Positions 2-13,691 of a DNA stretch of 64,000 nt are shown in pieces (within the stretch, counting starts at the first letter, position 1; the number at the start of each line of letters is the position of its first letter). The notes beneath the pieces are model-generated. The model was not told the DNA's origin, did not search any database, and worked only from the letters and a program-made list of their open reading frames with translations. The DNA is taken from positions 5,170,001 to 5,234,000 of the forward strand of contig NZ_CP029193.1 in NCBI RefSeq assembly GCF_008642355.1. Direction: 5' to 3'. Source of the DNA: Streptomyces venezuelae (GTDB lineage: Bacteria > Actinomycetota > Actinomycetes > Streptomycetales > Streptomycetaceae). A program made the translations under genes and the position numbers.

Positions 2-1213
2 AAGGACGTCGCGCGTGAACGCCGCGAGCTCGGCACGAATTTCGTCCGCTTCCTCCTCCAGTGGCGCAAGGTCGAGCCGTCGCCGGGAACGTACGACAGG
101 ACGTATCTGCGGCAGGTCGCCGAGCGGGTGCGCTGGTACGGGAAGCGGGGCCACCACGTCCTGCTCGACATGCACCAGGACCTGTACGGGCCGCGCGTCG
201 GCGGCAACGGCGCCCCCGCGTGGGCGACCGGGACCGACGGGCTGACCTCGGCCCCCACCGACCCCTGGGAACTCGGCTACGTCGAGCCGGGGACCGTCCG
301 CGCCTTCGACCGTTTCTGGGGGACGGTCGAAGGCGACGGACGTGACCTGCGCAAGCACTACGTGGGTGCGCTGCGGGAGGTCGCCAGGCACTTCGCCGCC
401 GACGACGCCGTCATCGGCTACGACCTGATGAACGAGCCCTGGGGCGGCAGCGTCCAGGGCCCCGCCTTCGAGTCAGGGCCGCTCGCCCGGCTCTACCAGG
501 ACGCCATCGACGCCATCCGCACCGTCGACCGCGACCACTGGCTGTTCGTGGAGCCGTCCGCCATCGGCTCCAACTGGGGCTTCGCCACGGGCCTGCCCCG
601 CCTGGACGACCCGCGCGGCGACGGCGACGCGGCACGCATCGCGTATGCGCCACATCTCTACCCCCTCCCCATGGACCTCGGCGGCGGCTACACCGGCAGC
701 ACCAAGGCGCAGGTCGACAGATCGCTGCGGGCCTGGCGCGACCAGACCGAGAAGACCGCGCGACGCCTCGGCGCGCCCGTCGTCATCGGGGAGTTCGGCC
801 TCGACGTGGGGCTGCCGGGCGCCATGGAGTACGTCGAGAAGGTGCAGCGCATGGCCGACGACATGGGGGCGGGCTTCGCGTACTGGTCCAACGACCCCGG
901 CACATGGGCCCCGTGGGACGCGAAACTGCGTCCGACACGGCTGCTGCCCGTACTCGACCGCCCCGCCCCGCTGGCCGTCGCGGGGGATCCGGTCGCGTAC
1001 CGCTGGGACGCGAAACGGAAGGCGCTGACGGTGAGCTGGCGCGGAACGGAGGGCGTGCGGGGCGGCACGGAGGTCCGGCTGCCGGCCCGGCACTTCCCGA
1101 GGGGCGGTCGTGCGCAGGGCGGGGAGGCGGCCTCCTGGGACCCCAAGTCCCGCATCCTCACCCTCACTTCGGGCCCGGGGACGCACTCTGTCCGCATCAC
1201 GCCACATGCGTGA
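2..1213 (+). CDS. Endoglycosylceramidase-like GH5 glycoside hydrolase, 3' part
   Basis: The reading frame is already open at the first base, so the N-terminus and any signal peptide lie outside the window; 403 residues remain. Clan GH-A GH5 hallmarks are visible. NEPWG near fragment residue 144 carries the acid/base Glu, VIGEFGLD near residue 263 carries the nucleophile Glu, and LLDMHQDLYG resembles the MHQD stretch of endoglycoceramidases. The last ~80 residues form a beta-rich domain like the GH5 C-terminal domain of that subfamily. The family cleaves the glycan-ceramide bond or other beta-glucosides outside the cell. The exact substrate is inferred only; another GH5 subfamily is possible. 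Confidence 0.8.
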   Translation, partial: KDVARERRELGTNFVRFLLQWRKVEPSPGTYDRTYLRQVAERVRWYGKRGHHVLLDMHQDLYGPRVGGNGAPAWATGTDGLTSAPTDPWELGYVEPGTVRAFDRFWGTVEGDGRDLRKHYVGALREVARHFAADDAVIGYDLMNEPWGGSVQGPAFESGPLARLYQDAIDAIRTVDRDHWLFVEPSAIGSNWGFATGLPRLDDPRGDGDAARIAYAPHLYPLPMDLGGGYTGSTKAQVDRSLRAWRDQTEKTARRLGAPVVIGEFGLDVGLPGAMEYVEKVQRMADDMGAGFAYWSNDPGTWAPWDAKLRPTRLLPVLDRPAPLAVAGDPVAYRWDAKRKALTVSWRGTEGVRGGTEVRLPARHFPRGGRAQGGEAASWDPKSRILTLTSGPGTHSVRITPHA

Positions 1214-1310: not shown

Positions 1311-2195
1311 ATGGGACAGAAGAGCAGAGCGGTCGCGGGCGGACTGCTCGCCCTCGCACTGGCCGGCGCGGGAGCGGCACCGGCGGTCGCGGGCAACGGG
1401 CAGGGTCAGGGGGCGGACCGGGCGCCGACGAAGGCCCCGGCGAAGACCAAGGCCGTCGACTTCGCGGGAACGGTGGCGCTCAGCAACTGTTCCGGGTCGG
1501 TGGTCCGCATGCCGAAGTCCAAGGCGGGCGACCCGGCACTCGTCCTCACCAACGGACACTGTCTGGAGACGGGCTTCCCCGGCGCCGGTGAGGTCATCGT
1601 CGACCAGCCGTCCACCCGTACCTTCAAACTGCTCGACGCGAAGGCCAATGACGTCGCCACGCTCAAGGCGTCCAAGGTGTCCTACACGACCATGACGGAC
1701 ACCGACATCACGCTCTACCGACTCACCCAGTCCTACGGCGACATCACCAAGAAGTACGGCATCAAGCCGCTGGAGCTGGAGGACGACCACCCGGTGAAGG
1801 GGCGCGCCATCACGGTCGTCTCCGGCTACTGGAAGAAGACCTACAGCTGCGACATCGACGGGTTCGTGTACCGGATGAAGGAGGGGGAGTGGACCTGGAA
1901 GGACTCCGTCCGCTACACCCCCGCCTGCCAGACCATAGGCGGCACGTCCGGGTCGCCCGTCATCGACCACAAGACCGGAAAGGTCACCGCGGTCAACAAC
2001 ACGGGCAACGAGGACGGCGAGCGCTGCACTCTCAACAACCCCTGTGAGATCGACCGCAAGGGCAGGGTGACGGTGCGGCAGGGCATCAACTACGCGCAGC
2101 AGACGTACGGGATCGTGCCGTGCGTCGGCAAGGGCAGCAAGATCGACCTGGGCCGCAAGGGCTGCAAGCTGCCGAGGCCGACGGCCACGAGGTAG
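1311..2195 (+). CDS. Secreted trypsin-like serine protease
   Basis: This 294-residue protein has a Sec signal peptide (residues ~1-27, ending in an AVA-type site). A chymotrypsin-fold triad is visible: His in TNGHC (~82), Asp in TDITLY (~131) and Ser in GGTSGSPV (~212). Paired cysteines suggest a disulfide-stabilised extracellular enzyme. The ATG follows a GAGGGGGG Shine-Dalgarno run. It is monocistronic, lying after the GH5 gene and convergent with the deacylase gene. It resembles the S1-family proteases common in Streptomyces; cleavage specificity cannot be read from the sequence. Confidence 0.85.
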   Translation: MGQKSRAVAGGLLALALAGAGAAPAVAGNGQGQGADRAPTKAPAKTKAVDFAGTVALSNCSGSVVRMPKSKAGDPALVLTNGHCLETGFPGAGEVIVDQPSTRTFKLLDAKANDVATLKASKVSYTTMTDTDITLYRLTQSYGDITKKYGIKPLELEDDHPVKGRAITVVSGYWKKTYSCDIDGFVYRMKEGEWTWKDSVRYTPACQTIGGTSGSPVIDHKTGKVTAVNNTGNEDGERCTLNNPCEIDRKGRVTVRQGINYAQQTYGIVPCVGKGSKIDLGRKGCKLPRPTATR

Positions 2196-2210: not shown

Positions 2211-3827
2211 TCAGGGGGTCCGGCGTACGGAGCGTCCCGCGAGGACGTCCGTGCGCCGGCCGTCCCGCATGACGAACCGCCCGTCGATCAGGACGTGCGG
2301 GATGCCGACGGGCAGCGTACGAGGAGCGTCGAAGGTGGAGCCGGCCGCGACGGTCTCCGGGTCGAAGAGGACGAGGTCGGCGCGGTAGCCCTCGCGGACG
2401 ACGCCCCGGTCGGGCAGGCGGAGGCGGGCGGCGGGCCGGGAGGTGAGGTGCGCGACGGTCTCCTCCACGGACATCACCCCGAGCTCCCTGGCGTACTTTC
2501 CCAGGTACTGCGGGAACGTGCCGTACGCGCGCGGGTGCGGCTTGAACCCCTGCAGGATGCCGTCGCTGCCGCCCGTGTGCACGCGGTGCCGCATGATCTC
2601 CTGCACGTTCTCCTCATGGCCGACGTGCTGAAGGATCGTGGACCCGAGGTTGTCGTTGAGGAGCAGCCGCCGGGCCGTGACCCAGGGCTCCTCGCCGCGC
2701 TGGGCGGCGGACTGGGCGATGGTCTTGCCGACGCAGGACGCGAGCCCCGGGTCGCTGACGCCCGACACCTCGATGGTGTCCCACTCGATGGGCACGCCGT
2801 GGCAGCCGTCCGCGCCGATGACCTCCATGTGGTGGCGGATCTTCTCGGCGGTCGCGTCGTCCAGGAGCCGGGCGCGGATCGCGTCGGGCCCGCCCTCGCT
2901 CGCCCAGCTGGGCAGCATGGCGACGAGGGTGGTGCAGCCGGGGGTGTAGGGGTACGTGTCGAGGGTGATGTCGGCGCCGTCGGCGAGGGCGGCGTCGAGG
3001 AGGGTGAGGAGGTCAGGAGCCTTCCCCTTGTTCACCCCGAAGTTCATGGTGGCGTGGGCGAGGTGGAGGGGGCAGTGGGCGGTACAGGTGAGGTTCACCA
3101 TCTCCTCGTAGGCCTGGAGGGCCCCGGCTCCGTAACTCCGGTGATGGGGACAGTAATAGCCCTTGTGCGCCGCGACGACCTTGCACAGCTCGGTGAGCTC
3201 GGAGTCGTCGGCGTACATGCCGGGCGTGTACGTGAGCCCCGACGACATGCCGACGGCGCCCTCCCGCATGCCCTCCGCGACGAGCCGCTTCATGCGGTCC
3301 AGCTCGGCGGGGGTGGCCGGCCGGTCCTCCCAGCCCATCGCATACATGCGGACGGTGCCCTGCGGGATGAGGTACGCGGCGTTCACCGCGATGCCGTGGC
3401 CGCCGTGGGCGGAGTCGAGGGCGTCGAGATATCCGCCGACGGTGCGCCACGTGAAGTCGATGTCGCTTCCGTCGCCGTTCCAGCCGGTGATGGCCTGGCG
3501 GACCTGGGCGAGCGTGCGGTCGTCCACGGGGGCGTAGGAGAGGCCGTCCTGGCCGATGACTTCCAGGGTGACGCCCTGGGCTGCCTTCGCGGAGTGGTCG
3601 GGGTCGCGGAGCAGGGCGAGGTCGCTGTGGGCGTGCATGTCGATGAAACCGGGTGCCAGCGCGAGGCCCTGGGCATCGAGATTGGCCTGCCCCGTGAGGC
3701 GGGGCGCTCTCTCCTCCCCCTCCCGGTGGATCGCGGCGATCCTTCCGTCCTGTACGCCGACGTCGGCGCGGTAGGAGGCACCTCCGGTGCCGTCTATGAC
3801 GCGGGCGTCTCGGATCACCAGGTCCAT
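2211..3827 (-). CDS. N-acyl-D-amino-acid deacylase (amidohydrolase)
   Basis: The 538-residue protein begins MDLVIRDARVIDGTGG, the small beta-sandwich start of amidohydrolase/dihydroorotase-type enzymes. It has the metal-binding HxH (DMHAHSDLAL, ~residue 65), a His-rich segment with HLAH, and the late Asp in HTGGSDGI, matching the D-aminoacylase family. The family hydrolyses N-acyl-D-amino acids to D-amino acids plus a carboxylate in the cytosol. The frame stays open far upstream, but this ATG has an AGAAAGG ribosome site and the family start. It is the last gene of the leftward pair in the cassette. An N-acylated amino-sugar acid is an alternative substrate. Confidence 0.85.
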   Translation of the reverse strand: MDLVIRDARVIDGTGGASYRADVGVQDGRIAAIHREGEERAPRLTGQANLDAQGLALAPGFIDMHAHSDLALLRDPDHSAKAAQGVTLEVIGQDGLSYAPVDDRTLAQVRQAITGWNGDGSDIDFTWRTVGGYLDALDSAHGGHGIAVNAAYLIPQGTVRMYAMGWEDRPATPAELDRMKRLVAEGMREGAVGMSSGLTYTPGMYADDSELTELCKVVAAHKGYYCPHHRSYGAGALQAYEEMVNLTCTAHCPLHLAHATMNFGVNKGKAPDLLTLLDAALADGADITLDTYPYTPGCTTLVAMLPSWASEGGPDAIRARLLDDATAEKIRHHMEVIGADGCHGVPIEWDTIEVSGVSDPGLASCVGKTIAQSAAQRGEEPWVTARRLLLNDNLGSTILQHVGHEENVQEIMRHRVHTGGSDGILQGFKPHPRAYGTFPQYLGKYARELGVMSVEETVAHLTSRPAARLRLPDRGVVREGYRADLVLFDPETVAAGSTFDAPRTLPVGIPHVLIDGRFVMRDGRRTDVLAGRSVRRTP

Positions 3828-3868
3828 GGGGGAGCCTTTCTGGGGTCGGCTGCGGGACGGTTGTGGCG

Positions 3869-3897
3869 CACCCGGCCTCCGGCCGGGTGTTTCTGTT
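3869..3897 (+). terminator. Hairpin with T-rich tail
   Basis: CACCCGGCC and GGCCGGGTG pair perfectly around a 3-nt loop and are followed by TTTCTGTT on the + strand. It looks like an intrinsic terminator, but no + gene lies just upstream, so its role is unclear; it could act against antisense transcription. Confidence 0.4.
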
Positions 3898-4120
3898 CCC
3901 ACCCGCACCACCCGTGCGACTTTCGTCGTCGGGTGCGGGTGGCCCAGGTGGGACGGTCCCGCCGTGGGCGGCGAACGGTGGGGAGGGGGTGGTGGCGCGA
4001 ACGGGCGAAACAAACAATTCGGGACCCAGCGCGCGCTGCGCGAGGGGGGCGAACGGGCGGTCCTGCCCTTGTCTCCTGGGGCGGCTATGCGATGTGGGGT
4101 GAACGGGCGGGTGGGTGGAT

Positions 4121-4192
4121 GTGATCCGCCGCGAAGCGGCGGGGCAGGGCAGCCCCCACGGGTGTGATCCGCCGCGGAGCGGCGGGGCAGGG
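4121..4192. repeat. Two 29-bp REP-like direct repeats
   Basis: Copies at 4121-4149 and 4164-4192 match at 28 of 29 positions. Each contains the small palindrome CCGCCGC-(GAA or GGA)-GCGGCGG. They lie just downstream of the deaminase stop codon and look like the dispersed GC hairpins of Streptomyces intergenic DNA. Confidence 0.6.
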
Positions 4193-4211
4193 GACCGCCC
4201 AAGACCCCCGG

Positions 4212-5489
4212 TCAGAAATACGTTCGGACGTAGGACGAGACCGTCCCATCCCCCTCCACCACAGGGATCAACTGCCACTTGTCGAACGCCGTGCACGGGT
4301 GCGAGAGGCCCATGCCCACCCAGTCGCCGACCGCCAGGTCCGCCTCCGGTGACGTGCGGAGCCAGCCGTGCTGGTCGGACAGGCCGGTGACCGTGATCCC
4401 CGTCGCCGCCCGCTCCACCCCGTCCCGGCGGACGACCTGCGCCTCGGGCAGGTCGAGGTCGTACGCCGCGTCCCGCTTCCCCGCGTTGGTGAACGCCTGC
4501 TCCGCGGACGGCCGCGACACGACCTGCGCCCAGAGCCGGAACGCGGGTTCGAGGGCGCCCTCCTCAGGGACCCGGTTGAACGGGGTCAGGTGCTTGTAGT
4601 GGCCGTCGTCGTGCGACACGTACGCGCCGGAGCGCAGGAGCTTCAGGACGGGCCGCGACAGTTCGGGGATCTCCGCGAAGACCGCCGCGACCGCGTCGAA
4701 CCACGCGCTGCCGCCCGCACTGACCACGACCTCCGGCAGGTCCGCGAACCACCCGGACTTGTCGAAGTCGGCGAGCAGCGCGACGAGCCGCCGCAGCCAA
4801 GCCGTCACCGTCTCGCTGGACGCCTCCGGCACCTCCCCCTCGTACCCCGCGACACCCACCAGCCGCAGCGTGTCCGCCGCGGCGACCGCGTTGGCGATGT
4901 CGAAGCACTCGGCCTCGGTGCGCGCCCCGGTCCGCGCGCCGTCACCCGCGGCGAGCTCGACGACCACGTCCACCGGACGGCTCGCGCCCGCCTCGCCGAG
5001 GGCGGCGTGCATGAGCTCGACGCCGCGTACGGAGTCGACGTAACAGACGAAACGGAAGGAGGAATCCGCATCCAGCTCGCCCGCCAGCCAGCGCAGCGCC
5101 GCCGCGTCGACGAGTTCGTTGGCCAAGAAGATCCGCTCCACGCCGAACTTCCGTGCCACGCGCACCTGGTGGGGGACGGCGAGGGTGATGCCCCAGGCGC
5201 CGCGCTCCAGCTGGCGGGCGAAGAGCTGCGGGGCCATGGACGTCTTGCCGTGCGGCGCGAACGCGAGGCCGTGGCGTTCGGCGTACGTCTCCATGAGGGC
5301 GAGGTTGTGCTCCAGGCGTTCGGCGGAGAGCGCGAGGACGGGCGTGGTGAAGCCGCCCGTGAAGAGGTTCCGCCGCTGGGCGGTGAGTTCGCCGACCGTC
5401 AGTCCTTCGGCGTCCGGAGGAAGCCCCTTGAAGCGGTGGTCCACTCGCTCGTCCGCGAGGGCGGTGTCGACGACGTCGTCGGCGGCCAT
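4212..5489 (-). CDS. PLP-dependent D-amino acid deaminase / dehydratase
   Basis: This 425-residue protein has an alanine-racemase-type TIM barrel with the PLP lysine in PHGKTSMAP and a C-terminal D-serine-dehydratase-like domain. SHPCTAFDKW near the C-terminus supplies the His-x-Cys pair that binds Zn in eukaryotic-type D-serine dehydratases. The family includes D-threonine aldolase, D-serine dehydratase and D-glucosaminate dehydratase, producing a 2-keto acid and ammonia. The ATG at 5489 was chosen because GGAGGAG stands 6-7 nt before it; an in-frame ATG at 5516 would put that site inside the coding region. It is divergent from the sugar kinase across a palindromic operator. The physiological substrate is inferred. 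Confidence 0.8.
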   Translation of the reverse strand: MAADDVVDTALADERVDHRFKGLPPDAEGLTVGELTAQRRNLFTGGFTTPVLALSAERLEHNLALMETYAERHGLAFAPHGKTSMAPQLFARQLERGAWGITLAVPHQVRVARKFGVERIFLANELVDAAALRWLAGELDADSSFRFVCYVDSVRGVELMHAALGEAGASRPVDVVVELAAGDGARTGARTEAECFDIANAVAAADTLRLVGVAGYEGEVPEASSETVTAWLRRLVALLADFDKSGWFADLPEVVVSAGGSAWFDAVAAVFAEIPELSRPVLKLLRSGAYVSHDDGHYKHLTPFNRVPEEGALEPAFRLWAQVVSRPSAEQAFTNAGKRDAAYDLDLPEAQVVRRDGVERAATGITVTGLSDQHGWLRTSPEADLAVGDWVGMGLSHPCTAFDKWQLIPVVEGDGTVSSYVRTYF

Positions 5490-5520
5490 GGGCGCCTCCT
5501 CCAGGAGTGCATTCAAGAGC

Positions 5521-5541
5521 GCGTTGCAACATTTGCAACGC
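5521..5541. promoter_or_regulatory. Perfect palindrome in divergent promoter, probable IclR operator
   Basis: GCGTTGCAA and TTGCAACGC form a perfect 9-bp inverted repeat around CAT. It lies 32 bp above the leftward deaminase start and ~90 bp above the rightward kinase start. The TTGCAAC-type symmetric half-sites fit IclR-family operators, and the only regulator in the cassette is an IclR protein. Assignment is inference from position and symmetry. Confidence 0.65.
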
Positions 5542-5629
5542 TCATTGCGTATGTCGCTTACTGCTGTCTAACATCCGAGCCAACGCCGGGTCAACGGATC
5601 AGGCGAGCCGGTGAAGGGGTTGGAAGATC

Positions 5630-6679
5630 GTGACCGCACAGGCACCCGTGGACGTCGTGGCGCTCGGCGAGTCCATGGTCACCTTCCTCCCCGCCCGGCC
5701 CGGCCGCCTCGCCGACGTGCCGTCCTTCGACCGCGGCATCGGCGGCGCCGAGTCGAACGTCGTCTGCGCGCTCGCCGCCGCCGGGCACACCACCCGCTGG
5801 GTCAGCCGCGTCGGCGCCGACGGTTTCGGCGACCACCTCGTCGAGGCGATCGCGCGCTACGGAGTGGACACCTCCGCCGTCGGCCGCGACCCGCACCGCC
5901 CCACCGGCATCTACTTCCGCACCGCCGACGACCGCGACACCGACGCCCACGAGGTCGTCTACTACCGCGCGGGTTCCGCCGCCTCCGCCATGGCGCCGGG
6001 CTCCGTCGACGAGGACGCCCTCGCCTCGGGCCGCATCCTGCACCTGTCGGGCATCACCCCCGCGCTGTCCGCCGACTGCCTCGCGCTCGTACGTCACCTC
6101 TGCGCCCGGCGCGCGGACCGCGGACCGCTCGTCTCCTTCGACGTCAACCACCGCCCCGGCCTCTGGAAGGACGACGCCCCTGCGGACCCCTCCGTCCTTC
6201 TCGACCTCGCGCGCGGCACCGACCTCGTCTTCGTCGGCGAGGACGAGGCCGCCGCGGCCTGGGGCGTCACCGGCGGACCCGACGCCATCCGCGCCGCCCT
6301 GCCCGAACCCGACACCCTCGTCGTGAAGCAGGGCAGCCGCGGCGCCACCGTCCACCGCCACGGTGAGGACCCCGTCTTCCAGGCCGCGCTGAAGGTCGAC
6401 GTCGTCGCGCCCGTCGGCGCCGGCGACGCCTTCGCCGCCGGTTTCCTCTCCGCCACCCTGCGGGGCCTGCCCGCCGCGCAGCGCCTGCGGCACGGCCACC
6501 TCATGGCCGCCGCCGCCCTCACCGTCCCCGGTGATCTCGCACCGCCCCCCGCCCGCGCCCACGCCGACCGCCTCGCCGCCCTGGACGACGCAGCCTGGGA
6601 GACACTTCGTCTCGGCCCCGGCTGGACGGAACGCGTCCCGGAGGACACCGGGGCCGAGGAGGAGGTACGTACCCCATGA
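5630..6679 (+). CDS. PfkB-family sugar kinase (2-keto-3-deoxygluconate kinase-like)
   Basis: The 349-residue protein has both PfkB signatures: GGAESNVVCALAAAG near the N-terminus and VAPVGAGDAFAAGF near residue 260, whose Asp is the catalytic base. VALGESMVTF at the start is typical of 2-dehydro-3-deoxygluconokinases. It would transfer phosphate from ATP to a sugar acid in the cytosol. The GTG start follows GGAAG. Its stop overlaps the IclR start by 4 nt, so the two are translationally coupled. A KDG role fits a neighbouring PLP dehydratase that could make KDG; fructokinase or ribokinase activity cannot be excluded. Confidence 0.8.
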   Translation: MTAQAPVDVVALGESMVTFLPARPGRLADVPSFDRGIGGAESNVVCALAAAGHTTRWVSRVGADGFGDHLVEAIARYGVDTSAVGRDPHRPTGIYFRTADDRDTDAHEVVYYRAGSAASAMAPGSVDEDALASGRILHLSGITPALSADCLALVRHLCARRADRGPLVSFDVNHRPGLWKDDAPADPSVLLDLARGTDLVFVGEDEAAAAWGVTGGPDAIRAALPEPDTLVVKQGSRGATVHRHGEDPVFQAALKVDVVAPVGAGDAFAAGFLSATLRGLPAAQRLRHGHLMAAAALTVPGDLAPPPARAHADRLAALDDAAWETLRLGPGWTERVPEDTGAEEEVRTP

Positions 6680-7440
6680 GCCAGACCGTCGACCGCGCGC
6701 TCTCGATCCTGCCGCTGCTCGCCGAGGGCCCCGCCGATCTGGGACAGGTGGCCGACCGGCTCGACGTCCACAAGTCGACCGCGCTCCGGCTCCTGCGCAC
6801 CCTCCACGAGCACGGCCTGGTCTTCCGCCAGTCCGACCAGCGCTACCGCCTCGGCGCGCGCCTCTTCGCGCTCGCCCAGGAAGCCGTCGAGAACCTCGAC
6901 GTGCGCGAGATCGCCCACCCCCATCTCCTCGCCCTCAACGAGAAGTGCGGCCACACGGTCCACCTCGCCGTGTACGAGGAGCAGGAGGTGCTGTACATCG
7001 ACAAGGTCGAGAGCCGCTATCCGGTGCGGATGTACTCCCGTATCGGAAAGCCGGTGGCGATCACCGTCGCCGCCGTCGCGAAGCTGCTGCTCGCCGACTT
7101 CCCGGAGGCCGAGCGCCGCGCCATCGCGGAGAAGCTCGACTACCCCACCTACACGTCCCGTTCGACGCCGAACGCCGCCGCGTTCCTCAAGGAGCTGGCG
7201 GCCGTGCGCGAACAGGGCTGGGCCACCGACCTCGGTGGCCACGAGGAGTCCATCAACTGCATCGGGGCCCCCATCCGCGGTGCGGACGGACGCGTCGTCG
7301 CCGCCATGTCGGTGTCCGCACCGAATGTCGTCGTCACCGCCGAGGAACTCCTCTCCCTGCTCCCACTGGTGCGCCGCACGGCGGACGCCATCAGCCGGGA
7401 GTACTCCGGCAACGCCCCTCTGAAGGAAGCACGTTCATGA
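6676..7440 (+). CDS. IclR-family transcriptional regulator
   Basis: This 254-residue protein has an N-terminal winged helix-turn-helix (LGQVADRLDVHKSTALRLL) and a C-terminal IclR effector domain. It is coupled to the kinase in front and to RidA behind by ATGA overlaps, so it belongs to the catabolic operon. The palindrome at 5521-5541 is its likely binding site. IclR proteins of such cassettes usually repress until a pathway intermediate binds; the effector here is not known. Confidence 0.9.
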   Translation: MSQTVDRALSILPLLAEGPADLGQVADRLDVHKSTALRLLRTLHEHGLVFRQSDQRYRLGARLFALAQEAVENLDVREIAHPHLLALNEKCGHTVHLAVYEEQEVLYIDKVESRYPVRMYSRIGKPVAITVAAVAKLLLADFPEAERRAIAEKLDYPTYTSRSTPNAAAFLKELAAVREQGWATDLGGHEESINCIGAPIRGADGRVVAAMSVSAPNVVVTAEELLSLLPLVRRTADAISREYSGNAPLKEARS

Positions 7441-7847
7441 CCGAGAAGACCGCCCTCACCCCGGCCACCCACACCACCCCGCCCGCGAAGTTCTCCCACG
7501 GCGTGAAGAAGGGCAACATCCTTCAGGTCGCGGGACAGGTCGGCTTCCTGCCCGCCGAGGAGGGCAAGGCGCCCACCCCCGCGGGCCCGACCCTGCGCGA
7601 GCAGACCCTCCAGACGTTCGCCAACGTCAAGGCGATCCTCGAAGAAGGCGGCGCGACCTGGGACGACGTGATGATGATGCGCGTCTACCTCACGGACGTG
7701 GACCACTTCGCGGAGATGAACGAGATCTACAACGCGTACTTCGAGGAGCAGGGCCTGAAGGCCCCCGCCTCCGCCCGCACCACGGTCTACGTCGGTCTTC
7801 CGGCGGGCCTCCTCATCGAGATCGACGCGCTCGCCGTCCTCGGCTGA
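7437..7847 (+). CDS. ridA: RidA family enamine/imine deaminase
   Basis: The 136-residue protein matches RidA in length and has VYLTDVDHFAEMNEIYNAYF plus the SARTTVYVGLP segment carrying the substrate-binding Arg. RidA hydrolyses reactive enamines and imines released by PLP dehydratases, which suits the neighbouring deaminase. The ATG at 7437 overlaps the IclR stop by 4 nt and follows GAAGGAAG; the frame is open further upstream, but that part is antiparallel to neither domain nor start signal and lies inside the kinase and IclR genes. Confidence 0.9.
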   Translation: MTEKTALTPATHTTPPAKFSHGVKKGNILQVAGQVGFLPAEEGKAPTPAGPTLREQTLQTFANVKAILEEGGATWDDVMMMRVYLTDVDHFAEMNEIYNAYFEEQGLKAPASARTTVYVGLPAGLLIEIDALAVLG

Positions 7848-7962
7848 CGCACATCCCTCTCCACCGGCAAGCCGTACGTCGTCACGGCACGGCGCCCACC
7901 CCCGGGGCGCCGTGCCGCGATCCCCCCTGCTCCGAAAGCCCCATGCACTTACGAGGTCAACG

Positions 7963-9453
7963 ATGTCCCCGTCCCACACCGCCGTGCTCGCGGCCGCCCC
8001 CGCCGCAGAACCGCCCCCGCACACCGGCGGACTGCTCGCCCTGATCGACGGCACGGCAGGCCTGCTGACCGTCGCCGCGCTGGGCATCGTCCTTCTCCTT
8101 TTCCTGATCATCAAGATCAGGCTGCAGCCCTTCGTGGCGCTCCTGGCGGTCTCCATAGCCGTCGGCCTCGCGGCCGGCCTCTCCGTCACCGAACTCTTCG
8201 GCACCGTCCAGAAGTCCGACGCCGTCTCGGTCATCGAATCGGGCATGGGCGGGATCCTCGGCCATGTGGCGATCATCATCGGCCTCGGCACGATGCTCGG
8301 CGCGATCCTGGAGGTCTCGGGCGGAGCGGAGGTCCTCGCCTCCCGCTTGCTGGGCCTCTTCGGTGAGAAGCGCGCGCCTCTGGCCATGGGCCTGACGGGT
8401 CTGATCTTCGGTGTCCCCGTCTTCTTCGACGTCGGCATCTTCGTCCTCGCGCCGATCGTGTACGCGGCGGCGAAGCGCAGCGGCAAATCGATCCTCCTCT
8501 ACTGCCTCCCCCTGCTCGCGGGTCTCTCCATGACCCACGCGTTCCTGCCCCCGCACCCCGGCCCGGTGGCCGCGGCGGGACTGCTCAAGGTGGACCTGGG
8601 CTGGGTCATCCTCATGGGCATCGTCTGCGGTATCCCCGCGGTCCTTGCCGCCTGGGTCTACTCCGCATGGATCGGCAAGCGCATCTTCGTGCCCGTGCCG
8701 CAGGACATGGTCGAGGCGGCGGACGAGGCGAAGGCGGCGGTCGTCGCGGAGCAGCGCGCGGCGGGTGTGGCGCCGCAGGAGAAGCCGGTGCCGCTGGGCA
8801 CCGTCTTCACGATCATCGGTACGCCCCTGTTCCTGATCCTCCTCGCCACGTTCTCCTCGATCGCCTTCGACCCCTCCACGTTCCGCTCGGTCATCGAGTT
8901 CTTCGGCAGCCCGTTCGTGGCCCTGACGATCGCCCTGCTGATGGCCTACTACCTGCTGGGCATCCGGCGCGGCTGGTCCCGCAAGTCCCTGGAGACGGTG
9001 TCCACGTCCTCCCTCAAGCCGGTCGGCAACATCCTCCTCGTCGTCGGCGCGGGCGGGATCTTCGGCGCGGTCCTGAAGGCGAGCGGCGTGGCCGCCGCGA
9101 TCTCGGACACGTTCCAGGACGTGGGCCTGCCCATCATCGTCCTCGCCTACCTGCTCTCCCTGATCCTGCGCGTCGCCCAGGGCTCGGCGACGGTGGCGAT
9201 CGTCACGACGGCGGGCATCGTCGCCCCCCTCCTCTCCGAGGGCGACTACTCCCAGGCGTTCGTGGCCCTGGTCATCATGGCCATCTCGGCGGGCTCCATC
9301 TTCGCCTCGCACGTCAACGACGGCGGCTTCTGGATGGTCGCGAAGTACTTCGGCATCAGCGAGCGGGACACGCTGAAGACATGGACGGTCCTGGAGTCGG
9401 TCCTGTCGGTCGCGGGCTTCGCGGTGGCGGCGGTCGTGAGCTTGTTCGTGTAG
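7963..9453 (+). CDS. GntP-family permease (gluconate/D-serine type)
   Basis: This 496-residue, very hydrophobic protein has about 12-14 predicted membrane segments, including LLLFLIIKIRLQPFVALL, GVPVFFDVGIFVLAPI and AGSIFASHVNDGGFW, typical of the GntP/GntT/DsdX family. That family imports gluconate or other sugar acids, and D-serine in DsdX, by proton symport. The ATG at 7963 has GAGGT 7-8 nt before it and starts the family homology. It closes the cassette and is followed by a terminator. Substrate is likely a D-amino acid or amino-sugar acid. Confidence 0.88.
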   Translation: MSPSHTAVLAAAPAAEPPPHTGGLLALIDGTAGLLTVAALGIVLLLFLIIKIRLQPFVALLAVSIAVGLAAGLSVTELFGTVQKSDAVSVIESGMGGILGHVAIIIGLGTMLGAILEVSGGAEVLASRLLGLFGEKRAPLAMGLTGLIFGVPVFFDVGIFVLAPIVYAAAKRSGKSILLYCLPLLAGLSMTHAFLPPHPGPVAAAGLLKVDLGWVILMGIVCGIPAVLAAWVYSAWIGKRIFVPVPQDMVEAADEAKAAVVAEQRAAGVAPQEKPVPLGTVFTIIGTPLFLILLATFSSIAFDPSTFRSVIEFFGSPFVALTIALLMAYYLLGIRRGWSRKSLETVSTSSLKPVGNILLVVGAGGIFGAVLKASGVAAAISDTFQDVGLPIIVLAYLLSLILRVAQGSATVAIVTTAGIVAPLLSEGDYSQAFVALVIMAISAGSIFASHVNDGGFWMVAKYFGISERDTLKTWTVLESVLSVAGFAVAAVVSLFV

Positions 9454-9776: not shown

Positions 9777-12700
9777 TCACGTGCACGTCTCGGCGTAGGG
9801 GATGTCCGGGATGTGCTCCGCCCACTCCGTGGGGGAGAAGCCGCCACCGGTGCGGGCGCAGACGCGGTCGACCAGGTAGGGGCGGTCGATCCGGTAGGCG
9901 AAGGGTGGCGTGTGTTCGCCCGTGGCCAGGACCGTGCCGCTGTCCCGGGTGAACGCCAGCGCGCGGATCACGTCACCGCCGGTCGGCAGGGAGGAGACCA
10001 GGAGCCTGCTGGACGGCACGTCGTGCAGCGCCACCCGGCCCCCGTCGTCGCCCACGGCCAGGGTTCTGCCGTCCGGGCTGACGGCGAGGGCCGTGACCGG
10101 CGACCCCGAGCCGTCCCCGGTCACCGTGAAGGTGCCGGGGAGGTCCGCGATCAGGCGGGTTCCGTCGCCGTTCCACAGGGCGACCCGGCCCGAGTACCCG
10201 CCCACGGCGAGCAGCGTGCCGTCGGGGCTGAAGGCGACGCGGTGCGCGCCCCGCGACAGGAGCGGGTCGCGGGCGGGGCGGCGGCCGGAACGGAGGCCGT
10301 AGAGGCCGCCGCCGTCCGCCGCATAGGCCCCGTCGGGACGTACCACCAGGTGATCCGTGCCCGACGACCAGCCGCTCAGCAGGCCCTCCGGGGAGGGCGC
10401 CGCCGCACCGGCGTGGAGCTTCAGGCGCTCAAGGCGCACCGCGTTCTCACGGCGCGTCAGGAGAGCGGCGCCGTCCGGGATGAGGGCGAAAGCCGACACG
10501 TCCTCGCCGTTGCTGCCCGCGCGGGCCAGGACGTGCCGACCCCGCTCGCGTGCCTCGCGTACGTCCCATACGCGGACCGTCTGGGCGTGCCGCCGAACCC
10601 CGTGGCTGTGCCGGGCGCGGACGCCGAGCGCCAGCCGGTTCCCGTCGGCGCTGAACGACAGGAGCGCGTCGCAGCGACGGTCCGCCCGGTCGATGTCACC
10701 CTTCTCGGAGAGATGGCACTCCTCGGGGGCCGGATGGCGGGGCGCGGCCTGTCCGGTGCCCGTGGACCGTACTTCGAAGCGCATCTGGTCGCCTTCCCTG
10801 CGGGCGAGGGCCACGTGCTCGCCGTCGGGTCCGTACCGCGCCTCGACGACGGGCGCGCGCCGCCAGGACGGCGTGAGGGCGTTGCCCAGGGCGAGGGTGC
10901 GCACGGTCGTGCCGTCCTCCCAGTAACGGACGGCCCGGTCCTCCGTGTCGATACGGAGTTGCGCGGCGGAACCGCCGTTGAGGGAGTGCCGGAGGACCGG
11001 ACGCCGCGGAGCCGTCGCGTCGGCCGTGCGGTACAAAAGGATCTCCTCGTCCGTGGTCACGCCGAGGAACGCCCCGTCGTCGCTGAACGCGACGCTCGCG
11101 TGGACCGGCGCGGCCCGCCACGACGCACCGGTCCGCAGGTTCCAGACGCGGACGTCGTCGCCCACGGAGGCGATGAAGCGCCCGCCGGGGTCGAGGACGA
11201 TCCGGTGACCGAGGCGTTCGGTACCGCACACCGCCCGCCGGGCACCGGCCGTGAGGCCCGTCGGCGCGGCGGTGGCGGCAGGACCGCCCGCCGCCGCGCG
11301 GATCTCCAGGGCGCGCGGCCCTTCGCGCTCGTCGGCGCGGCAGAACGCCATGATCCGGTCGTCGCGGCCGACCACGGCCTCCGCCACGTCCGCGTACGGC
11401 GTCAGGGCGATCCGGCGCGTGACGTGCCCACTCCCCGTGCGCAGCACCCGCAGCGCGGTCAGGTCGTGGACGACGACGTGGCGTCCGGTCGGGGAGAAGG
11501 ACGCGGGTTCGTACGAGGAGCGGAACGCGGGGCCGACGGGCTTCCCGGACCGCGCGTCGTGCACCCGTGAACGCCCGCCCTTGCCGAGGATCAGACGATC
11601 CCCTCCCGCCGACAGGTCCTGGATCTGCCGCCCGTGATGGCTGATCCGGGCCGTGCGCCGGTGACGTACGACGTCCCATACATGGATGTGTCCGGCGTCT
11701 CGGGTGAGGACGACGCGGCCGTCTGCGCTGAGGTGCGCGCCGTGGTACTCGTCGTCGCCCTTGCCCACGGGGGGCCGGAACGCGTCCTGTTCCCGCTGGG
11801 CCGCCGCGGCCACGAGCCCGGCCGCCGCCTCCGGCGTGGGATGGAGACGCCACGCCGCCACGTTCATCCGCATCGCGGCCACCGGCTGCGTGTAACGCAG
11901 GCTCTCGGCGCGGGACGCGAGCCTGCGCGAGGCCGTCTCGACGTCCCGTTGGATGCCGCTCCGGTGCTGCTGCCACGCGGTGACGCTCGCGAGGAGGACG
12001 AGGACGGTGAGCACGACGAGACCCGCCCGGGTGGTACGGCGTCTGCGCGTCCGGCGCCCCTCGGCGGCGCGCGCGGCAGCGAGGAAGCGCCGCTCGGGCG
12101 TCTCGCGGTCGGTGTGCGTACCGGACAGGGCCTCGGTGGCCAGGGCGAGTTGCGTGCCGCGGTAGAGGACCGCCGGGTCGTGCCCGCAGGACGCCCACGC
12201 GTCGGCGGCCTCGGCGAGCCGCTGCCGTTCGCGCAGCAGCGCGGCGTCGGCGTCGATCCAGCCGCGCAGCCGTGGCCAGGCCGACAGGAGTGCCTCGTGG
12301 GCGAGTTGGGCGCCCTCCTCGTCCAGGGTGAGGAGCCGGGCGTCGGCGAAGACGTCGACGACGCGACACGTGGTGTCCGTGTCGGGCAGCAGGGCCGCCA
12401 GGTCGTCGCGGGTGACACGGCGGCGCGTGCTCTGCCGTCCCGGGCCGATCCGCACCATGGACAGGAGGAGGTGCCGGGCCGCCGTCCGTTCGGCGGGCGC
12501 GAGCCGGCCGTACACGCGCTCGGCGGTCGCCTCGACGGCGCCCCGGATGCCGCCGGTGAGCCGGTAGCCGCCCACACTCATCCGGGCGTCGGGCTCGTCC
12601 CGCTGCTGCCAGGTGGCGAGGAGCGCGTGGGCCAGGAGGGGCAGCGCGCCCGCGTCGTGCGGCGGCCGGCCGTCGTCGCCGTGGACGCCCAGCTCGGCGA

Positions 12701-13691
12701 GGAGCAGCTCCGGGAGCCCGGGGTCGAGTGTGAGCCCCGTCCGCAGGGCGGGCCCTTCGATGGCCTCGCGCAGCTCCTCCCGCGTCATGGGGCCCAACGG
12801 AAGCTGCCCGTCCCGCAGGGCGGAGACCAGCTCGGGGTGCTCCAGGCAGGTGGCGTAGAAGTCGGCACGCACCCCGATGACGACCAGGACGGGCGCCCGC
12901 GCGTGGCCACCGTCGGGCCCGGCCAGCGCACTCAGGACCTCGATGAACCGCCGCCGCTCCCGCTCGGCGGCGCACAGCGTGAACACCTCCTCGAACTGGT
13001 CGGCGACCAGGACGAGTCCACCGGCGCGGAGGGCGACGGCGCGCGCGTCGTCGACGCACGACTCCCGGGTGACGGGAGCGTCCGTGGTGCCTGCCACCCC
13101 CGCGAGCGCCCCCGCCAAAGCGTCCAGCGGACGCGCCCCCGGCGAGAAACAGACCACCGGCCACGACCGCGACCCCGGCACCGGCAGCGCGCCACGCGCC
13201 ACCGCCGGGACCAGACCGGCGTGCAGCAGCGACGACTTGCCCGCCCCGGACGGGCCGACGACCACCACCGGACCCGGCACCCGCAGCCGGTCGGCGAGCC
13301 GGGACGTCAGCGCCGCCGTGGCCCGTTCACGGCCGAAGAACCACGCCGCGTTCCCGGGGCCGAAGGCGGCGAGGCCCGGGTACGGACACTCCTCCCGTCC
13401 CCGCGCGCCCGGCTGCGGCGGGGCGAGCGCGATGAGCGCCCCTGCCGCGCCCAGCGCCTCGTCGCAGCCGCGGGCCACGTCCGCCGTGGGCGGTTTCTGC
13501 CCGGTCTCGACCTTGCTCAGGTAGCCGCGGCTGTAGTGCGCGACGCGTGACAGATCCGCCAACGACATCCCCCGGTCAACGCGCAGCCTCCGCAGGCACT
13601 CCCCGAAGGTCTCGCGCGTCGGGCGACGTAGCTGGTGTCCTCGCTGGTCAGATGGTGTTTCCCGTTTCCCGTCGGACAAGGCGACAGGCAC
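9777..13691 (-). CDS. XRE helix-turn-helix nSTAND1 NTPase with WD40-like repeats
   Basis: This 1304-residue modular protein has an XRE/Cro helix-turn-helix at ~28-85 (MSLADLSRVAHYSRGYLSKVETG) and a STAND-type NTPase with Walker A GPSGAGKSS at 146-154 and GLVLVADQFEEVF as Walker B. A single membrane-like segment lies near 545-562 (LVVLTVLVLLASVTAW). About 650 C-terminal residues follow, with recurring F-S-P-D-G-x-x-L-A-V-G WD40-like blades. STAND proteins are ATP-driven switches in signalling or immunity. The GTG used here overlaps its own AGGAGG; a TTG at 13679, 11 nt after AGGAGG, is more plausible. It is divergent from the phospholipase gene. Specific role unknown. Confidence 0.85.
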   Translation of the reverse strand: MPVALSDGKRETPSDQRGHQLRRPTRETFGECLRRLRVDRGMSLADLSRVAHYSRGYLSKVETGQKPPTADVARGCDEALGAAGALIALAPPQPGARGREECPYPGLAAFGPGNAAWFFGRERATAALTSRLADRLRVPGPVVVVGPSGAGKSSLLHAGLVPAVARGALPVPGSRSWPVVCFSPGARPLDALAGALAGVAGTTDAPVTRESCVDDARAVALRAGGLVLVADQFEEVFTLCAAERERRRFIEVLSALAGPDGGHARAPVLVVIGVRADFYATCLEHPELVSALRDGQLPLGPMTREELREAIEGPALRTGLTLDPGLPELLLAELGVHGDDGRPPHDAGALPLLAHALLATWQQRDEPDARMSVGGYRLTGGIRGAVEATAERVYGRLAPAERTAARHLLLSMVRIGPGRQSTRRRVTRDDLAALLPDTDTTCRVVDVFADARLLTLDEEGAQLAHEALLSAWPRLRGWIDADAALLRERQRLAEAADAWASCGHDPAVLYRGTQLALATEALSGTHTDRETPERRFLAAARAAEGRRTRRRRTTRAGLVVLTVLVLLASVTAWQQHRSGIQRDVETASRRLASRAESLRYTQPVAAMRMNVAAWRLHPTPEAAAGLVAAAAQREQDAFRPPVGKGDDEYHGAHLSADGRVVLTRDAGHIHVWDVVRHRRTARISHHGRQIQDLSAGGDRLILGKGGRSRVHDARSGKPVGPAFRSSYEPASFSPTGRHVVVHDLTALRVLRTGSGHVTRRIALTPYADVAEAVVGRDDRIMAFCRADEREGPRALEIRAAAGGPAATAAPTGLTAGARRAVCGTERLGHRIVLDPGGRFIASVGDDVRVWNLRTGASWRAAPVHASVAFSDDGAFLGVTTDEEILLYRTADATAPRRPVLRHSLNGGSAAQLRIDTEDRAVRYWEDGTTVRTLALGNALTPSWRRAPVVEARYGPDGEHVALARREGDQMRFEVRSTGTGQAAPRHPAPEECHLSEKGDIDRADRRCDALLSFSADGNRLALGVRARHSHGVRRHAQTVRVWDVREARERGRHVLARAGSNGEDVSAFALIPDGAALLTRRENAVRLERLKLHAGAAAPSPEGLLSGWSSGTDHLVVRPDGAYAADGGGLYGLRSGRRPARDPLLSRGAHRVAFSPDGTLLAVGGYSGRVALWNGDGTRLIADLPGTFTVTGDGSGSPVTALAVSPDGRTLAVGDDGGRVALHDVPSSRLLVSSLPTGGDVIRALAFTRDSGTVLATGEHTPPFAYRIDRPYLVDRVCARTGGGFSPTEWAEHIPDIPYAETCT

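Follow-up and report, generated by a model that had tools for sequence, protein, structure and literature searches.

A six-gene cassette at positions 2211 to 9453 of the window, by which we mean the whole 64,000-nucleotide stretch of the Streptomyces venezuelae chromosome analyzed here (NZ_CP029193.1, positions 5,170,001 to 5,234,000, from a genome of 8.02 Mb in a single contig), is probably the actinobacterial form of a catabolic pathway for N-acetyl-D-glucosaminate (2-acetamido-2-deoxy-D-gluconate, GlcNAc1A), with the unlinked aldolase Eda and control by an IclR-family regulator included. That the route leads to 2-keto-3-deoxy-6-phosphogluconate (KDPG) is very probable, and GlcNAc1A is likely its main natural substrate, judged from a chain which runs from related deaminases to copies of the GlcNAc1A transporter OngIT beside them. 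The route has already been published for marine Gammaproteobacteria, and the Streptomyces cassette is a variant of that known pathway and not a new kind of system. The strongest new evidence for KDPG as the cassette product is an operator common to the cassette and to the distant gene for KDPG aldolase (eda). The features of the cassette are as follows.

2211..3827, minus strand: D-aminoacylase-like amidohydrolase (Pfam Amidohydro_3), 538 aa, predicted GlcNAc1A deacetylase
4212..5489, minus strand: fold-type III pyridoxal phosphate (PLP) deaminase (PF14031 and PF01168), 425 aa, predicted to convert D-glucosaminate to 2-keto-3-deoxygluconate (KDG) and ammonia
5521..5541, no strand: predicted IclR operator, GCGTTGCAACATTTGCAACGC, its core conserved with iclR and the same site present before the KDPG aldolase gene
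5544..5557, no strand: second, imperfect operator box, ATTGCG-N5-CGC, right of the first, recognized by column conservation over 22 eda and 22 cassette sites
5630..6679, plus strand: PfkB-family kinase (Pfam PfkB), 349 aa, GTG start, predicted KDG kinase
6676..7440, plus strand: IclR-family regulator (Pfam IclR_C and HTH_IclR), 254 aa
7437..7847, plus strand: RidA-family protein (PF01042, Ribonuc_L-PSP), 136 aa, predicted to act as an enamine/imine hydrolase for the PLP deaminase
7963..9453, plus strand: GntP-family permease (PF02447, GntP_permease), 496 aa, predicted sugar-acid importer

The deaminase gene and then the deacylase gene run leftward, while pfkB, iclR, ridA and gntP run rightward with 4-base overlaps between pfkB and iclR and between iclR and ridA. 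An earlier sequence-only reading of this DNA had described six genes around one operator, and this was borne out, as all six are intact reading frames whose Pfam and NCBIfam assignments agree with the names given and the operator is a perfect palindrome. Its description of the cassette as complete-looking did not hold with respect to KDPG aldolase, which is encoded elsewhere on the chromosome. The deaminase carries the Pfam domains D-ser_dehydrat and Ala_racemase_N and has as its nearest PDB relative 3gwq, titled 'D-serine deaminase'; PDB relatives of the deacylase are D-aminoacylase, N-acyl-D-glutamate deacylase and the GlcNAc1A deacetylase PpOngB. The kinase, to which KDG-kinase features had been ascribed, has as its top NCBIfam model a kinase of KDG or 2-keto-3-deoxygalactonate (KDGal) and as its nearest solved structure the KDG kinase 1v19, although at 182 bits it falls below the model cut-off of 400 and the curated model is not passed. 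The top NCBIfam models for the IclR protein were KdgR (156 bits) and BhcR (155 bits), each under its cut-off. The GntP protein passed the gluconate:H+ symporter model TIGR00791 (387.8 versus a cut-off of 292.75 bits) and scored 238 with the DsdX model, in line with the uptake of gluconate-like acids proposed for it before. A route through D-glucosaminate-6-phosphate and the phosphotransferase system was dropped, since none of the six genes belongs to that system.

In the pathway that we propose, GntP would import GlcNAc1A, the amidohydrolase would remove acetate from it, and the PLP deaminase, aided by RidA, would convert the resulting D-glucosaminate to KDG and ammonia. The PfkB kinase would then phosphorylate KDG to KDPG, and Eda, whose gene is 2.9 Mb distant here and part of the cassette in several other genera, would cleave KDPG to yield pyruvate and glyceraldehyde-3-phosphate. 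Control of both the cassette and the eda promoters, through a common two-box operator, would fall to the IclR protein, whether as repressor or activator.

Conservation of the operator was followed across 62 loci retrieved for their orthologous deacylase, 24 from Streptomyces and 38 from outside the genus (including Tsukamurella and Arthrobacter plasmids). A deacylase match at E <= 1e-150 came from 117 of the 121 Streptomyces genomes in the sample, and as the 24 loci were hand-picked from these 117 with low-identity loci included deliberately, the Streptomyces locus counts are not genus-wide rates; locus counts throughout are descriptive, with related genomes treated as independent. GCGTTGCAACATTTGCAACGC is a 21-bp perfect palindrome with 9-bp arms and the core GTTGCA-N5-TGCAAC. 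Scored as this core with at most two mismatches upstream of the deaminase gene, or of the deacylase gene where no deaminase was adjacent, the operator was found in all 21 Streptomyces loci with iclR versus none of the three without it. Outside Streptomyces it was found in 8 of 9 loci with both iclR and deaminase, in one (L070) of three other loci which have iclR and no adjacent deaminase, and in 1 of 26 without iclR, against a background of 8 in 1195 stretches of 250 bases. The exception without a local iclR (locus L065 of genome G677) has iclR elsewhere beside a kinase and an aldolase gene, and between these genes is a site that resembles the operator (2 mismatches). On this pattern we predict the palindrome at 5521-5541 to be the operator of the cassette IclR, which would bind there.

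In the S. venezuelae genome the operator recurs with at most one mismatch at 2308440-2308456, where it precedes by 41 bp the start codon of the KDPG aldolase gene (2308498-2309130), approximately 2.9 Mb from the cassette. An eda orthologue was sought in 29 genomes and found in 21 of the 25 that were Streptomyces, including all 18 with a kinase in the cassette and three of six without; one genome with no eda orthologue (G451) also lacked a deacylase match. With up to two mismatches, the operator stood before eda in 21 of 22 Streptomyces genomes (S. venezuelae included), 22-65 bp upstream, and with three mismatches in the 22nd, whereas none of 1080 clean background stretches held it at two or fewer. 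It was absent upstream of all four second aldolase genes of Streptomyces and of all four non-Streptomyces aldolase genes, one of the latter from genome G801. Across the 22 eda and 22 cassette sites the operator arms were near-fixed and the five spacer bases varied more, and a second TTGC box lay at equal distance in both, so that the two-box layout is common to the cassette and eda promoters. Eda of S. venezuelae passed the KDPG-aldolase models PRK05718 and TIGR01182, was below the cut-off of the stricter PRK06015 (269.5 versus 320), and fell far below that of the model for the aldolase of 2-keto-3-deoxy-6-phosphogalactonate (KDPGal; 101 versus 207).

The aldolase also occurs within the cassette itself. 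In 7 of the 62 loci, all outside Streptomyces, the deacylase gene has a KDPG aldolase gene no more than 3 kb away, and each of these seven also holds deaminase, kinase, IclR, RidA and GntP; none of the 24 Streptomyces loci has an adjacent aldolase. On the Tsukamurella and Arthrobacter plasmids RidA, IclR and kinase genes are divergent from deaminase, deacylase, KDPG aldolase and GntP genes, and the Arthrobacter plasmid aldolase passes TIGR01182. A neighborhood survey in other actinobacteria had been suggested as a check on the pairing of kinase and deaminase; the two are found together, and 7 of the 38 non-Streptomyces loci add KDPG aldolase to all six genes. These loci, with the operator at eda in 21 of 22 Streptomyces, support the earlier suggestion that KDPG would be fed into central metabolism.

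All six genes were found within approximately 9 kb in 15 of the 24 Streptomyces loci, with RidA in 23, deaminase in 23, IclR in 21, kinase in 18 and GntP in 15. GntP accompanied the kinase in 15 of 18 loci and was present in none of the six without a kinase. Outside Streptomyces the full set was a minority (RidA 29, deaminase 18, kinase 18, IclR 12 and GntP 8 of 38). The six-gene grouping is not due to chance. One haloarchaeal deacylase approximately 40% identical to that of the window, on a Natrialba magadii plasmid, lies near genes annotated as dipeptide epimerase, NlpC/P60, dacB and lysA, neighbors which suggest another role, on peptides or D-amino acids, for that branch.

The pathway to which we compare the cassette was published in 2022 for the ong cluster of Pseudoalteromonas prydzensis ACAM 620, reported to catabolize GlcNAc1A, the C1-oxidized end made by chitin-active lytic polysaccharide monooxygenases (LPMOs), to KDPG (PMC9537276). 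The annotation of that cluster comprises a sugar kinase, RidA, D-aminoacylase, D-amino acid deaminase, regulator, transporters and hexosaminidase. In vitro OngB deacetylated the substrate, OngC produced KDG and ammonia, and KdgK produced KDPG, and single deletion of kdgK, ongB, ongC or ongD abolished growth on GlcNAc1A (PMC9537276). The same report describes the RidA-type OngD as essential with a role unknown, concludes that OngIT specifically transports GlcNAc1A, and surveyed 2,455 marine and 12,220 terrestrial genomes for at least four co-occurring genes at >30% identity, with the complete pathway confined to Gammaproteobacteria and one Betaproteobacterium (PMC9537276). The window cassette brings together genes assigned to the same superfamilies (D-aminoacylase-like deacetylase, fold-type III PLP deaminase, PfkB KDG kinase and RidA) with the same proposed reactions, and the order of steps proposed earlier for it, from import through deacylation and PLP deamination to KDG and then KDPG, matches this genetically tested pathway (PMC9537276). 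The two differ in the regulator, an IclR protein with its own operator versus the RpiR-type OngR, and in the transporter, GntP versus OngIT, a member of the solute:sodium symporter (SSS) family. Unlike the ong cluster, the window cassette has no hexosaminidase or outer-membrane receptor and has its aldolase unlinked under the operator of the cassette; the Vibrio, Klebsiella and Serratia versions of ong add a KDPG aldolase.

A link from the window deaminase to OngIT was found through its relatives. In a tree of 37 deaminases, midpoint-rooted for drawing and built without the Nesterenkonia deaminases, a clade of 23 rows (95/95) joins the Streptomyces clade of the window, deaminases of the aldolase-bearing cassettes, deaminases from kinase-less loci, and four OngIT-linked deaminases (L202-L205). 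The genomes of these four hold a second cluster in which RidA, a deaminase 41-45% identical to that of the window, kinase and IclR stand beside an SSS transporter, with KDPG aldolase in two of the four. That transporter is 53-55% identical to Vibrio OngIT, while the OngIT proteins of Vibrio and Pseudoalteromonas piscicida are 54% identical to each other. A scan of named genomes for OngIT-like transporters returned 66 loci, of which 31 were analyzed: 21 actinobacterial (Nocardiopsis, Murinocardiopsis, Glycomyces, Nesterenkonia and four Streptomyces), nine gammaproteobacterial ong clusters and one planctomycetal. The 21 held a deaminase in 14, a kinase in 13 and a KDPG aldolase in 10, two of the 21 loci (L215, L220) being truncated on that side by contig ends; the Murinocardiopsis and the four Streptomyces loci had none of the three. 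In the OngIT-linked clusters of Nocardiopsis and Nesterenkonia the deaminase is 39-47% identical to that of the window and is accompanied by PfkB kinase, RidA and often KDPG aldolase, with IclR present in Nocardiopsis as in the window and an OngIT-like SSS transporter where the window has GntP. The place of the deacetylase is taken by another amidohydrolase in Nocardiopsis and by a deacylase of the Cys/Lys type in Nesterenkonia. An OngIT-like transporter beside related deaminases thus speaks for the substrate named in the sequence-only reading. We infer GlcNAc1A as the exact substrate and do not claim it more firmly, because the enzymes are distant from those tested and the deacylase is without the tested specificity residues.

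Several variants were seen among these loci. The amidohydrolase that fills the deacetylase place in the Nocardiopsis OngIT clusters (8411-9892 in L204, and relatives) is distantly related to the window deacylase, and in this genus group a deacylase of the window type occurs elsewhere together with a kinase. The loci of Streptomyces oceani, albidus, daqingensis and abyssalis (L223, L224, L227 and L228) combine an OngIT-like transporter with a D-aminoacylase-like deacylase and IclR and have no fold-type III deaminase. The sole one of the four read, L227, has a PALP-family PLP enzyme where that deaminase would be expected, which may be a different way to carry out the deamination.

A number of results weigh against the GlcNAc1A reading, among them several at the active site of the deacylase. 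Its residues were compared with OngB by sequence alignment only, in which the insertion loop aligns poorly. PpOngB (PDB 9KB1/9KB3; PMC12017989) belongs to the same amidohydrolase family, and the window protein is approximately 29% identical to the two OngB copies compared and keeps the positions of the catalytic Asp368, the HxH motif, the metal ligands His222 and His252, Tyr285 and Arg379. It has Asp at the position of Cys97, Thr at those of Lys254 and Ser292, and Lys at that of Gln298. In the published enzyme Lys254 holds the substrate carboxylate and the S292T variant keeps 1.3% of kcat/Km (PMC12017989). Asp at the Cys97 ligand position was found in the window protein and in all 60 fetched orthologues (L064-L123), and the Lys254 position was Thr in all 24 Streptomyces loci and in the 12 non-Streptomyces loci with an adjacent deaminase at >=39% identity, and His in the remaining 24 non-Streptomyces orthologues. 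The D-aminoacylases AfDam (1M7J) and BbDam (3GIP), of the same family, resemble the window deacylase in the Thr at the Ser292 position and differ from it in the Cys ligand and the conserved Lys, with the insertion region unaligned. By alignment the window deacylase therefore appears to form a subfamily of its own, with Asp for the Cys metal ligand and Thr for Lys254. The OngB specificity signature failed to transfer, as Ser292 and Gln298 differ. This was not read as disproof because the OngIT-linked Nesterenkonia deacylases differ at the same two positions (Thr292 and Arg298) while keeping Cys97 and Lys254, and enzymes from outside Gammaproteobacteria may not need the published signature.

The remaining adverse results concern lineage, gene content, regulation and chitin. 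In the tree OngC falls with proteins from Comamonas and Agrobacterium (100/99), separate from the remaining 33 rows, the window deaminase gets better scores with copies next to amino-acid ABC transporters than with OngC, and OngC itself is reported to deaminate D-serine and D-threonine as well (PMC9537276). Against reference ong clusters taken from unannotated plasmid records of P. piscicida (L154) and Vibrio (L155, with KDPG aldolase), in which genes were named by order and family resemblance, identity was 30-32% for the deaminase, 29% for the deacylase, 28% for the kinase and 27% for RidA, values for these copies and not for those of ACAM 620; at this distance the threshold of the published survey would probably miss the cassette. 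Kinase and GntP are both missing at 6 of the 24 Streptomyces loci. Kinases elsewhere in five of these genomes are only 33-40% identical, a search for one elsewhere in the sixth (G437) found none, and three of the kinase-less genomes have a kinase-aldolase pair elsewhere with no operator there. Seven further kinase sites in G441, G494, G466 and G479 were searched, and none had an operator with two or fewer mismatches. Genome G801, which bears the cassette outside Streptomyces, has the operator at the cassette and none at eda, and G479 has it at eda, yet its cassette locus yielded no iclR. A genome-wide scan at up to one mismatch gave eight operator places and the reversed control pattern also gave eight hits, so the evidence lies in position and conservation and not in the number of hits. 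A second exact match at 7099382, inside a 425-aa frame at its Cys-rich stretch, was set aside as chance; we take this frame, judged by eye and with no family search, to be a radical-SAM-like protein.

With respect to chitin, co-occurrence of cassette and LPMO outside Streptomyces was marked when counted by genome (20/35 versus 61/319, p 3.6e-6) and not significant by genus (8/19 versus 31/117, p 0.18), and as 12 of the 20 genomes came from one genus (g264) the association was discarded as support. Four of the five genomes of the class sample with the aldolase in the cassette had no LPMO_10 hit and the fifth a weak one, and these would therefore depend on oxidized ends made by others. No DasR-like site was found in the cassette; a dre-like pattern for DasR matched once in the window (17382, 3 mismatches), and a tie to DasR was unsupported.

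The alternative to which several of these results point is a plain N-acyl-D-amino-acid cassette, in which D-serine or D-threonine released by the deacylase is deaminated by the PLP enzyme with RidA, and the kinase either is there incidentally or acts on some other substrate. This agrees with the names of the nearest PDB relatives (D-aminoacylase and D-serine deaminase), with the closer score of the deaminase to copies linked to amino-acid ABC transporters than to OngC, and with the six Streptomyces loci that keep the deacylase, and in five cases the deaminase, without kinase and GntP. It leaves unexplained both the KDPG aldolase in the cassette of seven loci and the operator common with eda in 21 of 22 genomes; moreover, the kinase-less G441 and G494, which keep iclR, still have the operator at eda (G466 has no eda orthologue), and GntP scores as gluconate-type and not as DsdX-type. 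We consider this explanation improbable. If kinase and aldolase were instead a separate sugar-acid pathway with only the regulator common to a D-amino-acid pathway, their occurrence apart from the window-type deacylase in some genomes (e.g., L202, L203 and L209) would be accounted for. The pairing of kinase and deaminase persists, since L202-L205 and the named Nocardiopsis and Nesterenkonia OngIT-like loci mostly keep kinase and aldolase beside deaminase and RidA, and such a division appears very improbable.

The same route might also serve another acid, either N-acetyl-D-galactosaminate by way of KDGal or a compound whose N-acyl group is not acetyl. The top model of the kinase spans KDG and KDGal, the deacylase active site is unlike that of OngB, and a variant of this kind may exist on a Comamonas odontotermitis plasmid (L023), where a deaminase, a D-aminoacylase and RidA lie near an annotated 2-dehydro-3-deoxygalactonokinase and KDPGal aldolase, possibly a version for N-acetyl-D-galactosaminate. 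In Streptomyces, however, the co-regulated aldolase passes two KDPG models and is far below the KDPGal cut-off, and the relatives are marked by OngIT-like transporters, so that we judge another acid to be unlikely and retain GlcNAc1A as the preferred substrate.

Streptomyces are major soil chitin degraders, and the S. venezuelae genome encodes four LPMO_10 genes. Whether the genus as a whole recycles LPMO-made oxidized chitin ends through a separately assembled GlcNAc1A pathway, with a new Asp-ligand deacetylase subfamily, a deaminase lineage other than OngC, GntP, and an IclR regulon in which the unlinked Eda would find a main job, seems to us evenly balanced. In the open-licence literature searched we found no description of this pathway in Streptomyces and no paper on how Streptomyces handle aldonic acid ends from chitin-active LPMOs, and the main text of a 2025 paper on S. 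venezuelae chitin catabolism contains no mention of LPMO, oxidi-, aminoacylase or gluconate (PMC12370203). If the function is confirmed, many entries named 'D-aminoacylase' and 'amino acid deaminase' would be re-annotated, given the deacylase in 117 of 121 Streptomyces genomes, the pathway, so far one of Gammaproteobacteria, would be extended to soil Actinomycetota, and a small regulon would be defined whose operator can be tested.

The 384-base gap between the deaminase and deacylase genes contains a 42-nt hairpin-like unit twice in tandem at 4117-4201 (88% alike, 43-nt spacing), possibly a mobile or regulatory repeat. Immediately to the left of the cassette are a GH5 cellulase-family protein with a GH5 C-terminal domain (128-1213, plus strand) and, after it, a trypsin-like peptidase (1311-2195, plus strand). 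On its other side, at 9777-13691 on the minus strand, a 1304-aa protein combines a helix-turn-helix domain, an nSTAND1 NTPase and WD40 repeats in a STAND-type signalling or defence-like architecture.

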